A stretch of 64,000 nucleotides of DNA from Chitinolyticbacter albus (GTDB lineage: Bacteria > Pseudomonadota > Gammaproteobacteria > Burkholderiales > Chitinibacteraceae): the NCBI RefSeq assembly GCF_024437655.1, contig NZ_JANBVF010000004.1, positions 1 to 64,000 of the forward strand, in the 5' to 3' direction. Positions within the stretch are counted from its first letter, which is position 1, and every line of letters begins with the position of its first letter. The notes under the pieces are model-generated. The model did no database searches and was not told where the DNA came from. It was given only the letters and a program-made list of their open reading frames with translations. Below are positions 13,347-50,879 of the stretch, one piece after another. The position numbers and the translations under genes were made by a program.

Positions 13347-13372
13347 TCCCACCCGCGGCAGTTCGCAACAAT

Positions 13373-13400
13373 GAAAACGGCGCCTCGCGGCGCCGTTTTC
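13373..13400 (+). terminator. Rho-independent terminator after the BON lipoprotein
   Basis: A perfect 12-bp stem (GAAAACGGCGCC/GGCGCCGTTTTC) with a 4-base TCGC loop. The T-run lies in the stem end. It may act in both directions. Confidence 0.85.
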
Positions 13401-13424
13401 ATGCAATTCCCATCAGAACCACCG

Positions 13425-13537
13425 GCGTCACTCACAAAACCCCGCGTAGCGGTGCTGGCAAGGCGCGCGAAACGCAGACAGTACAAACTGTACGGCCAGT
13501 GAGTGCAACGATGCCAGCAGGGTTTTGTGAGTGACGC
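13425..13537. repeat. dispersed repeat with 18-bp terminal inverted repeats, copy 1
   Basis: A 113-bp element bounded by perfect 18-bp inverted repeats (13425-13442 and 13520-13537; the inner end reads ACAAAACCC). Read on the minus strand it contains CGTTGCACTCACT, GCCGTAC, CTGTCTGCGTTTCGCGC and TTGCCAG in order. The same blocks in the same order occur at 50707-50816. It ends one base before the ndh stop codon region. No open frame is apparent, so it is a MITE-like or structured non-coding repeat. Confidence 0.85.
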
Positions 13538-13538
13538 A

Positions 13539-14846
13539 TCAATGCAGCTTGATCGCCGGCCGTGCAACCCGGCGCAGCTTGTCGCCCATCCATAACAGGA
13601 TGGTGAGCGGCCAGCCGTGCACCGCCGCCTGATGGATACGATAGAGCGAGGCGTAGATCAGTTTGGCGCCGCGTCCTTCCACGTAGTAGTTGCGCTTGGG
13701 GCCGACGATGGCAGCGAGGCTGCCGACGGCAGTGTGCTTGCCGAGCGACACCATGATCCCCTGCGGCTTGAATACGAAAGGCACCACTTCCCGGCCCGCC
13801 AGCTTGTCAGCGAGCGCACCGGCCAGCCATTCGGCCTCCTGGTGCGCCACCTGCGCGGTGGCGGCCAGCGGCCTGCCCCCCTCGCCATCCGGTGCCTCGC
13901 TACAGTCGCCGATGGCAAAGATGGCCGGATCGGTCAGCGTCTGCAGCGTGGTCGTCACCTTGATCTGGTTGCCGCGATTCACCTCCAGCCCCAACTCGGC
14001 CAGCCAGGGCGAGGCCTTCACCCCGGCCGCCCATACCGCGATGTCGATCGCCAGTTGCGTGCCGTCGGCCAGCATCACCACGCCGGGCTCGACTGCCTCG
14101 ACGCGCCGGTGCGTGAAAACCTGGATGCCGCGCTTTTCCAGCTCGGCCGTGGCGTAGTCCGCCAAGGTTGACGGCGCAGCGGCGAGGATGCGCTCGCCGG
14201 CTTCGATCAGCGTGATTTCCAGCCGATCTGGCGTGAAATTGGCACCGTAGTGATGCATCTCGCAGATAGTGTGGTGGATCTCGGCCGACAGCTCCACGCC
14301 GGTAGGGCCGGCGCCGATGATGGCGATGCGCAAGGGCACAGTCGACGCATGCGCACTGGCGGCAAAGGTCAGCGCCAGGATGCGCTTTCTGAGCTTTTCC
14401 GCATCCTGCGGGTTGTTGAGGAACATGCAGTGCTCGGCAACACCGGGCGTGCCGAAGTCATTGGCAACGGCGCCAACGGCGATCACCAGCGTGTCGTAGG
14501 CCAATTCACGCGCGGCCGACATCACCGTGCCTTCGTCATCGCGCACTTCGGCGAGATGGACGCTTCTGGCCGCGCGATCGAGCCCCGTCATAAAGCCATA
14601 TTCGAAGCGATAGCCGTTGCGCCACGCGTGGGCGAAGTAGTTCACCTCGTCCTCGCCGCTGTTGAGCGCGCCGGTCGCCACCTCGTGCAAGAGCGGCTTC
14701 CAGATATGGGTGGGCGAGGCGTCGACCAGGATGACCTCAGCCTGCCGGCCCCGGCCAACGGTACGGCCCAGGCGGGTGGCGAGCTCGATCCCGCCGGCGC
14801 CCCCGCCGACGATGACGATGCGATGCGGTATGACTGCTGCGTTCAT
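13539..14846 (-). CDS. ndh: type II NADH dehydrogenase (NDH-2)
   Basis: A 435-residue FAD flavoprotein that oxidises NADH and reduces quinone at the inner membrane without pumping protons. The FAD motif VIVGGGAGGIELATRLG (residues 10-26) and NADH motif IAIIGAGPTGVELSAEIH (about 170) are intact. IFAIGDCSEAPD marks the second FAD contact. A C-terminal amphipathic/hydrophobic part (YRIHQAAVHGWPLTILLWMGD) is the usual membrane anchor. The ATG at 14846 is taken because the fold starts a few residues later; 49 Ala/Cys-rich upstream codons are dropped. Monocistronic, with the repeat element at its 3' end. Confidence 0.93.
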   Translation of the reverse strand: MNAAVIPHRIVIVGGGAGGIELATRLGRTVGRGRQAEVILVDASPTHIWKPLLHEVATGALNSGEDEVNYFAHAWRNGYRFEYGFMTGLDRAARSVHLAEVRDDEGTVMSAARELAYDTLVIAVGAVANDFGTPGVAEHCMFLNNPQDAEKLRKRILALTFAASAHASTVPLRIAIIGAGPTGVELSAEIHHTICEMHHYGANFTPDRLEITLIEAGERILAAAPSTLADYATAELEKRGIQVFTHRRVEAVEPGVVMLADGTQLAIDIAVWAAGVKASPWLAELGLEVNRGNQIKVTTTLQTLTDPAIFAIGDCSEAPDGEGGRPLAATAQVAHQEAEWLAGALADKLAGREVVPFVFKPQGIMVSLGKHTAVGSLAAIVGPKRNYYVEGRGAKLIYASLYRIHQAAVHGWPLTILLWMGDKLRRVARPAIKLH

Positions 14847-15057
14847 GCTTATGCTCCAGTGTGTTGTTCGTTCCCGCAGAGCTGGCGGGGTGGCACCTGC
14901 GGCTGCGCTCAGCGCGCAAGCCGGGCCACAATCACACGCAGCATGACGCAGAAAGGCAGCGGTCGTAACGGCAATTGTTACCGCCGGCCCCACTGTTTCG
15001 CCGCCGGGCAGAGCTGATCATCCCAATGCCGGCCAAGGTCATACGCGTGGCGGGCAG

Positions 15058-49124: not shown

Positions 49125-49306
49125 GGAACGCTTCTCTTACAGTGGGCTATAGCGCAGTTTATGCAAGCCCCCCACCCAAGGCAAACGGCAATCCCGGCCG
49201 CGCATCCCGTGCCGCACGACGACTACGCACCCCACCACGCAGCCGGCCCCTGGCCCTATGCTACACTCGGCCGATTCTAGAAACCGGCTTCGCTTACGGA
49301 AAGACA

Positions 49307-50167
49307 ATGGATCGCGCGCAACGTTTCATGGCCTCGGCAGTGCTCCTGTCCATGCTGCTGCATGCCGCACCGATTCTCGGCATCCGTTTTGTCATGCCCG
49401 ACCCCAAGACGCTGTTTTCCAGCCAGCCGCTGGAAGTGGTGCTGGTCAACCAGCGCACCGAAAGCGCGCCGACCAAGGCCGATGTCGAAGCCCAGGCCAA
49501 TCTGGATGGCGGTGGCAATACCGACGCCGAAAACCGCCGGGTGAAGAGCCCCCTGCCGGTGCAATCGCAGGAGGCCTCGGTCGAACTCGAGCGCACCCAA
49601 CGCAAGCAGAAGCAGCTGGAGCAGGAAGCGCAACAGCTGATGACCAAGCTCGATCGCCGCGACGCCACGCTGCCCGCGTCGCAAAAGAGCGACAAGCCGG
49701 CCGATTCGCAGGACGGGCTCGACCAGGAAGACCTGCGCCAGCAGGCACACGAGCTCTCGGGCTCCGCCGCGCAGATCAGCAAGCGCTGGGAGCAGTACCA
49801 GACCCGGCCGCGCAAGACCTTCATCGGCGCCCGCTCGCGCGAATACCGCTTCGCCCGCTATGTCGAGGACTGGCGAATGAAGGTGGAGCGACTCGGCAAC
49901 CTCTCCTACCCGACCGACAAGTACGGGCAGAAGCTCTACGGCCGGTTGTTGCTCAATATCGAGATCGACGCCAACGGCAATCTCGTCGTCGCCGAAGTCG
50001 GCCGCTCGTCCGGCAATGCCGAGCTCGATGCCGCTGCGCTCGCCATCGTCAAGCGGGCCGCGCCGTTCGGCCCGTTCCCGCCGGAAATCCGCAAGGACAC
50101 CGACATCATCGGCATCAGCCGCACCTGGACCTTCGCCAAGGGCGATTCGGTGATCGGGGACGATTGA
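49307..50167 (+). CDS. TonB-like energy transducer
   Basis: A 286-residue protein with an N-terminal anchor ([20 protein letters not shown], residues 7-26). A charged, Gln-rich coiled-coil linker (about 95-170, [24 protein letters not shown]) follows. The TonB C-terminal domain spans about 195-280 ([23 protein letters not shown] ... [25 protein letters not shown]). The usual Pro-Lys linker is replaced by coiled coil, as in TolA. ATG 49307 has GGAAAG upstream. Its stop overlaps ruvC (TGATG). No ExbBD is adjacent, though exbBD lies at 24354-25503. Confidence 0.85.
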
Positions 50168-50688
50168 TGCGCGTGCTCGGCATCGACCCGGGCTCGCGCG
50201 TCGCCGGTTTCGGCGTCATCGACGTGGTCGGCCAGAACCGGCACTACGTCGCTTCCGGCTGCATCAAGACCCCCACCAACGGCACGCTGCCCGAGCGGGT
50301 GAAGGCCTTGCTCGATGGTATCGCCCAGGTGGTCACCACCTACCAGCCCGACATCGCCGCGGTCGAGATCGTGTTCGTCAACGTCAACCCGCAGTCGACG
50401 CTGCTGCTGGGGCAGGCGCGCGGCGCCATCGTCGCCGGCCTCGTTACCGCCAACCTGCCGATCGCCGAATACACGGCGCTGCAGGTGAAGCAGGCGGTGG
50501 TCGGCAATGGCCATGCCGACAAGGATCAGGTCGGCCATATGGTGCAGCGGCTCTTGCGGCTTTCCGGCATACCGCAGGCCGATGCGGCCGATGCGCTCGC
50601 GGTGGCACTGACGCACGCCCAGCACCAGGGCGGCGCGATCAAGCAGCTTGGCGGCGGCCTGACCATCCGTCGTGGTCGCCTGGGCTAG
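50167..50688 (+). CDS. ruvC: Holliday junction endonuclease RuvC
   Basis: A 173-residue resolvase that cuts Holliday junctions symmetrically in the RuvABC complex. The catalytic acids are Asp7 in [12 protein letters not shown], Glu in [15 protein letters not shown] (about 67), and two Asp in [16 protein letters not shown] (about 139 and 142). [11 protein letters not shown] is the conserved core helix. ATG 50167 overlaps the TonB-like stop by one base. A dispersed repeat follows at once, then ruvA beyond one small gene. Confidence 0.97.
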
Positions 50689-50706
50689 GCGCAGTTGCAC
50701 CTTCGA

Positions 50707-50816
50707 GGGGCTAACAAAACCCTTCTGGCTACGTTGCACTCACTTGCCGTACGCCTTGTAACTGTCTGCGTTTCGCGCTTCTTGCCAGAGCCGCTGCGCT
50801 GGGTTTTGTTCGCCCC
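50707..50816. repeat. dispersed repeat with terminal inverted repeats, copy 2
   Basis: A 110-bp element with 16-bp terminal inverted repeats and one mismatch (50707-50722 and 50801-50816, sharing ACAAAACCC with copy 1). Outer bases CGCAGTT (50690-50696) and AACTGCG (50824-50830) also pair. Read on the plus strand it has CGTTGCACTCACTTGCCGTAC, then CTGTCTGCGTTTCGCGC, then TTGCCAG, the same order as the minus strand of 13425-13537. The copies are thus oppositely oriented. It lies between ruvC and the zinc-ribbon gene. Confidence 0.85.
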
Positions 50817-50879
50817 ACTAAGGAACTGCGGTTGCTGGCCGCCGTCTGATCGTTTTCGCAACCCGCTACGAGGTAGAAC

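Follow-up and report, generated by a model that had tools for sequence, protein, structure and literature searches.

A dispersed hairpin repeat in Chitinolyticbacter albus: a probable Correia-type miniature transposon with a candidate IS5-family partner

Two copies of the element in the window

The window, a 64,000-nucleotide stretch of Chitinolyticbacter albus DNA, carries two copies of a short element with terminal inverted repeats, both without the insert described below. Copy A (13425-13537, minus strand) has the perfect 18-bp ends that the earlier note had claimed for it, the left repeat (13520-13537) reading GCGTCACTCACAAAACCC on the minus strand and the right one (13425-13442, plus strand) matching it throughout. 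Inside these ends, the plus-strand arms GCCAGCA (13513-13519) and TGCTGGC (13453-13459) pair in a middle stem (helices 2-3), and the core closes in a terminal hairpin of GTAC, loop and GTAC (13481-13493; helix 6). Copy B (50707-50816, plus strand) lies in the opposite orientation, with a 16-bp left arm (50707-50722) reading GGGGCTAACAAAACCC and a right arm (50801-50816, minus strand) that has 1 mismatch to it. The claim that the core recurs there holds (BLASTN of copy A against copy B, E = 1.3e-24), and the sequence blocks named for the core are common to both copies, in the same order when aligned. A covariance model, R1, matches copy A at 13421-13541 (133.2 bits) and copy B at 50701-50822 (119.2 bits); the MAFFT alignment behind it comprises 37 copies, taken from the own genome and from relatives outside the Neisseria family. 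Both copies fold more stably than 200 of 200 shuffled sequences on either strand (z = -3.7 to -6.8).

Copy A starts 1 base past the TGA stop (13539-13541) of a minus-strand open reading frame (ORF; 13539-14993) with pyridine-nucleotide-disulphide oxidoreductase domains, which is convergent with a BON-domain ORF. Between the latter and copy A stands a GC-rich perfect palindrome, AAAACGGCGCC..GGCGCCGTTTT (13374-13399), likely a transcription terminator. Copy B lies 18 bases downstream of a RuvC-domain ORF (49258-50688).

An Rfam search of the window brought a tRNA alone to its gathering score and placed no family on the element; a further match at 13353-13409 was at chance level and outside the element. 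The family, described as new-looking, is not isolated, being a branch of a superfamily that includes the Correia elements of Neisseria. No match to the element was found in a phage collection. The viral-classed IMG/VR contig UViG_2568526002_000003 holds several exact ends (L155, L156, L158), two paired copies among them.

Copies, hosts, and insertion sites

R1 gave 37 matches at E <= 0.01 in the own genome (3.92 Mb), 23 of them below 1e-6, which bears out the proposal of a dispersed family with terminal inverted repeats. BLASTN with copy A recovered other copies there at E-values down to 4e-29, with 47 places at E <= 10 of which the weaker ones are fragments or chance. The unit is about 111 bp long, with the terminal inverted repeat consensus GAGCCGCTAACAAAACCC around a conserved imperfect-hairpin core; short, devoid of a transposase ORF, bounded by inverted ends and dispersed in many copies, it has the makeup of a MITE. 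Neither of the two outcomes held beforehand to be fatal, a genome with no more copies or assignment to a known Rfam or REP family, occurred. The earlier note had weighed a MITE, a REP-like element and a structured RNA as alternatives; MITE and structured hairpin are both favored here and are not alternatives, and the REP-like reading is unsupported. Although a REP or REPIN element moved by a RAYT would likewise be a small palindromic intergenic repeat, the long terminal repeats, the target duplications and the length of about 111 bp make it highly improbable. No REP-type tag was seen in the arms.

An exact pattern search found matches in Andreprevotia lacus and Andreprevotia sp., which belong to the host family, Chitinibacteraceae. 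By BLASTN at E <= 0.001, the element was present in 24 of 61 genomes, so that the check on own and related genomes proposed earlier was positive in both. R1 at E <= 0.01 matched 120 of 399 genomes sampled from the order (65 of 159 genera), a lower bound because of strict filters and few candidates scored, although its E-values are per genome and rough and some of the weakest matches are chance; among the matches listed, a hand count puts 86 genomes at 1e-6 or better. Of 369 genomes sampled from the class, 13 match R1 at E <= 1e-4; three belong to the same order and 10 lie outside it (E = 7e-13 to 9e-5). Five loci from outside the order were inspected; two (L425, L426) have the same core with quite different ends and three (L427-L429) have only the architecture in common, hinting at a still wider superfamily. 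Named records with the element include Eleftheria terrae, Cupriavidus metallidurans and Neisseria gonorrhoeae.

For counts at the level of copies, 237 candidate rows (32 + 104 + 75 alignment rows and 26 own loci) were reduced to 183 by removing duplicates, antisense readings of a place already represented and any copy that came within 11 bases of the end of its locus. The set comprises 33 own copies, 63 others from the host family (group f1), 67 from other non-Neisseria families and 20 from the Neisseria family (f44); the relatives in it are the best-scoring among the matches listed and are biased to well-conserved copies. An extra insert brings 15 of the 33 own copies to lengths of 152-190 bp. 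The insert (e.g., in L012, L016, L018, L019 and L022) is about 34 bp, reads ACCGAAGGRAGTCCGG...CCTTTCAGGRC and occupies one fixed core position; it is degenerate in two copies and is present in some as two tandem units. Hairpin expansions recur, since other f1 copies (L191 and L193 in G013, L197 in G015, L185 in G008) have different short inserts elsewhere in the stems, e.g., GGCGCCGAGCC and GGACCCTAAAGGGCC. In copy L109 (G235), the loop is enlarged by tandem units of the GTACTACC type.

The target-site duplication suggested as a check was found. Identical 3-mers flank 54 of the 163 non-Neisseria copies (27 TAA, 22 TTA, 2 TGA, 2 TTG and 1 CCG), against a mean of 19.2 and a maximum of 33 in 10,000 permutations of partners. 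They are frequent in some groups (f32, 7/7; f21, 14/21; f27, 9/14; f25, 4/8; f51, 2/8; f49, 1/1) and scarce in others (own genome, 6/33; other f1, 11/63; f31, 0/4; f20, 0/4). Sliding the register by 1 base left 38-39 identical and larger slides 3-15, counts that reflect composition common to the bases beside the site. In the 3-mer register tested, f44 had 0 of 20 identical, with palindromic flanks in 17.

Many copies abut a stop codon. On 66 of the 366 sides of the 183 copies, a frame of 100 or more open codons ends in a stop whose first base is exactly the first base of the target, over a background mean of 1.8 per position between -60 and -1. These 66 are 45 TAA, 13 TGA and 8 TAG, the last of which is not TNA. 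Position +1 has 18 stops, 14 of them TAG formed by TTA and the first G of the element, and 20 fall at position +10, where TAA is usually part of the arm itself. Taking positions 0 and +1 together, 81 of the 183 copies abut a stop, with 2 of 20 in f44. By crude gene calls, which missed the full RuvC-domain ORF, 17 of the 86 harmless TWA sites in the window (20%) were at stops, compared with 17 of the 33 own copies. Target preference and selection against insertion within genes may explain much of the coincidence, and an additional preference for stops is possible. Landing on a stop codon is a simple route to a near-harmless transposon. Of 154 copies, 61 turn their left end to the stop of the gene, 12 their right end and 3 both ends (P = 5e-9, assuming independent copies).

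Complementary arms and the folded strand

The claim that the ends co-vary as pairs was upheld in the 37-copy MAFFT alignment, in which 91.6% of cells pair against 79.7% when shuffled, and compensatory changes are present, with 21 of 29 pairs changed on both sides against 11.6 when shuffled (helices 1, 2, 4 and 5); the alignment was not structure-fitted, and the pairs were chosen on the same alignment, which favors them. Structures slid along it pair at only 28-43%, and on none of five measures of co-variation is the observed value reached in 500 shuffles. Of 18 positions, 2.12 differ between the two arms of one copy and 2.8 between arm and consensus, and exchanging arms between copies of a group raises the former to 3.90 (minimum, 3.56 in 1,000 exchanges), as counted in 154 of the 163 copies after 9 with more than 6 mismatches were dropped.

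The mismatches that remain are asymmetric. Read in the element sense, they comprise 144 A.C, 47 G.T and 136 others, and an A.C excess in that sense means G.U on the minus strand. The excess appears in eight of nine groups, with f32 tied, and on whichever side the gene lies; the lone f49 copy has 2 G.T and no A.C. Counted as distinct events by genome position, A.C outnumbers G.T by 110 to 41, the excess being present in 24 genomes, reversed in 3 and tied in 2. At unpaired core positions, no asymmetry of this kind is seen (G to A, 0.092; C to T, 0.083).

Outer arms that vary between copies and yet match within a copy (2.1 of 18, against 3.9 permuted) would also arise by template-switch correction of imperfect palindromes in replication, with no structural selection. 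We regard this as unlikely, as the inner helices 4 and 5 co-vary too and symmetric correction would not give the excess of A.C over G.T.

Folded singly, 124 of the 183 copies are more stable as the minus strand and 58 as the plus strand (summed by hand). For the A2, f1, f51, f27 and f44 sets, it is the minus strand whose consensus folds better; in f25, f21 and f32, the two strands are equal or the plus strand has a slight advantage. Central pairs have G.U on the plus strand, which counts against a constraint on the minus strand, as does the shared ancestry of the copies. On balance, the structure is likely kept on the minus strand. Selection on readthrough mRNA would predict more G.U than A.C in the transcribed sense; this candidate was rejected, the test having come out against it with 28 G.U and 56 A.C.

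Selection on structure or mobility had been offered as the reason for the conservation, and signs of both are seen. The hairpin could be primarily a functional noncoding RNA or 3'-end element at gene ends whose mobile ancestry is incidental, a reading in keeping with the both-side changes in helices 1, 2, 4 and 5, the core consensus (54-94% alike between family groups), the bias of left over right ends at stops and gonococcal transcriptome sequencing, which in a passage of PMC5039591 supports transcription at 91 of 96 places with a Correia element (CREE) near predicted noncoding RNAs. Target duplications, ends in common with insertion sequences (ISs) and a patchy distribution speak against it, and we hold it doubtful, if a serious contender.

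A candidate IS5-family partner and the Correia elements

Insertion sequences with the ends of the element were sought by an end pattern that excluded MITE interiors, in 61 genomes and then in a wider version over 20 genomes. The 61-genome search gave four matches in three genomes, of which three coincide with known MITE copies and the fourth (G024) is the end of an IS. The 20-genome search gave two inward end pairs, 865-866 bp apart, in two genomes; the other 12 stretches around end matches held MITE-sized pairs or lone ends. Both ISs have two open frames in different registers, TTA on both sides and ends that match 16 or 17 of the 17 bases GAGCCGCTAACAAAACC. Their frames match PF13340 and PF01609 (DUF4096 and DDE_Tnp_1; PF01609, E = 1.6e-18), and against the IS5-family model NF033580, ORF B scores 138.5 bits (cut-off, 110) and ORF A 108, just under, placing the partner, with its DDE transposase, in the IS5 family. 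The repeat has, besides its target-site duplication, ends common to an autonomous element, as MITEs do.

A protein search blind to the ends gave 16 matches at E <= 1e-25 in 12 of the 399 genomes, including the G278 copy already known from its ends. Ten have an end that is of the TAACAAAACC type or varies from it slightly; in five of these it is present at both sides, with 16-18 of 18 bases matching between ends, and in one more as the variant CTAACACCACC; of the other six, one has a different perfect end, GAGGCGGTTTCAAAAAG, and five are fragments or yielded no end. Closely similar ends, GAGCGGCTAACAAAACC and GAGTCGCTAACAAAACT, also bound a named IS5 of Cupriavidus taiwanensis, which is flanked by TAA on either side.

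That no transposase lies near the repeat, as noted earlier, extends to the own genome, where no matching IS was found at E <= 1e-15, in an 84-contig draft assembly from which repeats can drop out. Among 37 host-family genomes, the IS occurs in G024 only, plus a fragment. Co-occurrence was insignificant (MITEs in 5 of 12 IS genomes and 115 of 387 others; Fisher P = 0.36, assuming the same 399 genomes in the covariance and protein searches), which is compatible with a transient IS but lends no support. In Neisseria, there were 33 IS5-like matches in 5 of 8 genomes, and none of the 13 of 30 loci scanned had the Correia repeat (<= 2 mismatches in 13); the three elements compared have ends reading GAGACCTTTGCAAAAT, unlike Correia ends.

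The insignificant co-occurrence leaves room for another transposase, e.g., of the IS630 type, as the mover, with the likeness of the ends due to convergence or capture by the IS, and an excerpt of PMC2817692 derives Correia elements from IS630. The three-base TNA duplication and the agreement at either end with IS copies of different families, in 16-17 of the 17 terminal bases, make this quite improbable.

Most probably, the repeat belongs to a Correia-type superfamily of MITEs, which are non-autonomous DNA transposons, and is putatively moved in trans by an IS5-family transposase and afterwards constrained as a folded strand. An IS5-family DDE transposase would recognize the ends of the element, supplied in trans by insertion sequences of about 865 bp that come and go, and would insert it into TWA or TNA with duplication of three bases. 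Insertion at a gene's end could leave the stop codon and the protein intact and so be tolerated, since TNA includes TAA and TGA, and TTA followed by the element's first G gives TAG. An inserted copy would then be constrained as a folded single strand, probably minus-strand RNA, keeping the arms complementary while their sequence drifts. Against this explanation, the own genome has no such IS, IS and MITE share about 17 terminal bases and no evident interior, and Neisseria elements are described with TA duplications and other ends, the IS5-like elements examined there also ending differently. The element belongs to a real and widespread MITE superfamily with a structured core and a plausible mover in the IS5 family.

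The superfamily extends into Neisseria. R1, with no f44 sequence in the model, matches 8 of 8 Neisseria-family genomes (best E = 1.2e-13). In four of them (G079, G291, G374 and G400), 14 of 14 loci inspected have the repeat TATAGTGGATTAA and the core GCGTTGCC..CTTGCCGTAC..GTACTGTCTGCGGC; the other four have TATAGT ends with a different continuation in 12 of 14 loci and are variants. A named N. gonorrhoeae record aligns with copy A at 85% over 52 bp in BLASTN (E = 2e-3) and carries the same element as the f44 loci. The neisserial uptake sequence is contained in 19 of the 28 f44 loci. Correia elements are described in a passage of PMC2649163 by their core ends, end types AACAAAAA or AAATTTAAA and forms of 104-108 and 153-157 bp, features by which the loci of the four genomes are identified as Correia elements. 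Passages of two papers, e.g., PMC5039591, term Correia elements Neisseria-only, and those of the published work consulted report that they change expression of neisserial genes and disrupt some, and give the mover as a guess or undetermined; one proposal, in an excerpt of PMC3898611, is IS1106 of the IS5 family. A literature search, mostly of open-access text, returned no Correia-type sequence outside Neisseria among the matches listed; a passage of PMC4853749 describes a Thiomargarita MITE of similar structure and divergent sequence. With Correia homologues across the order and a full-size IS that has the same target as these homologues and nearly identical ends, the question of the mover becomes experimentally direct in harmless bacteria.

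Cores and ends have discordant histories. In family consensus rows from structure-fitted alignments, some from groups of only four copies, f51 and f31 are 86% alike in the core and 47% in the ends, f1 and f27 are 72% and 97% alike, and f44 and the other groups are 54-71% and 25-45% alike. A Cupriavidus copy and an IS402-like element have a second end type, GTTTCAAAA, in common: the Cupriavidus metallidurans copy (L392) has ends GAAGCCGTTTCAAAATG, near the end GAGGCGGTTTCAAAAAG of the IS in L383, for which plasmid relatives carry an IS402-family annotation, and the two are possibly a second IS/MITE pair. Together with the discordance, this end type suggests that cores change ends. We tentatively propose, while thinking it rather less than probable, a modular superfamily in which a conserved hairpin core, selected perhaps as minus-strand RNA, is refitted in each lineage with the ends of an active IS5-type element, with Correia as the Neisseria branch. 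The alternative is an ancient element whose ends drift along with each transposase.

Judged by sequence, the superfamily includes the Correia elements, and the window repeat is a sister group of them. The likeness to Correia elements (CREE, NEMIS) lies in the homologous core GCGTTGC..CTTGCCGTAC..GTACTGTCTGCG..CGCCTTG (covariance E = 1e-13), the overall hairpin, the existence of short and long forms in both and a subterminal AACAAAA block, as in one published Correia end type. The differences lie in the ends, which are 25-45% alike between the f44 consensus and other groups in a model-fitted alignment, the 26-bp Correia repeat (TATAGTGGATTAA...) not being that of the window ends (13 of 29 end positions alike between f44 and own); in a 3-bp TNA duplication in non-Neisseria copies against the TA reported for Neisseria; in a long form that arises from another insert at another place; and in hosts outside Neisseria, the window host belonging to the family of Andreprevotia. 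As it fails two defining Correia features (ends and TA duplication) and differs in host range, the repeat is classed as a sister group of the Correia elements and not among them. Compared by description and not by sequence, ERIC, RUP and other small bacterial MITEs are alike in size class, inverted ends and stable hairpins, whereas an excerpt of PMC2229807 tabulates them with TA at the termini. The IS5-family ISs (NF033580; IS402-like for the second end type) are alike in 16-17 of 17 terminal bases and the TWA duplication and differ in being about 865 bp long with a DDE transposase and in an interior with no similarity seen to the repeat.
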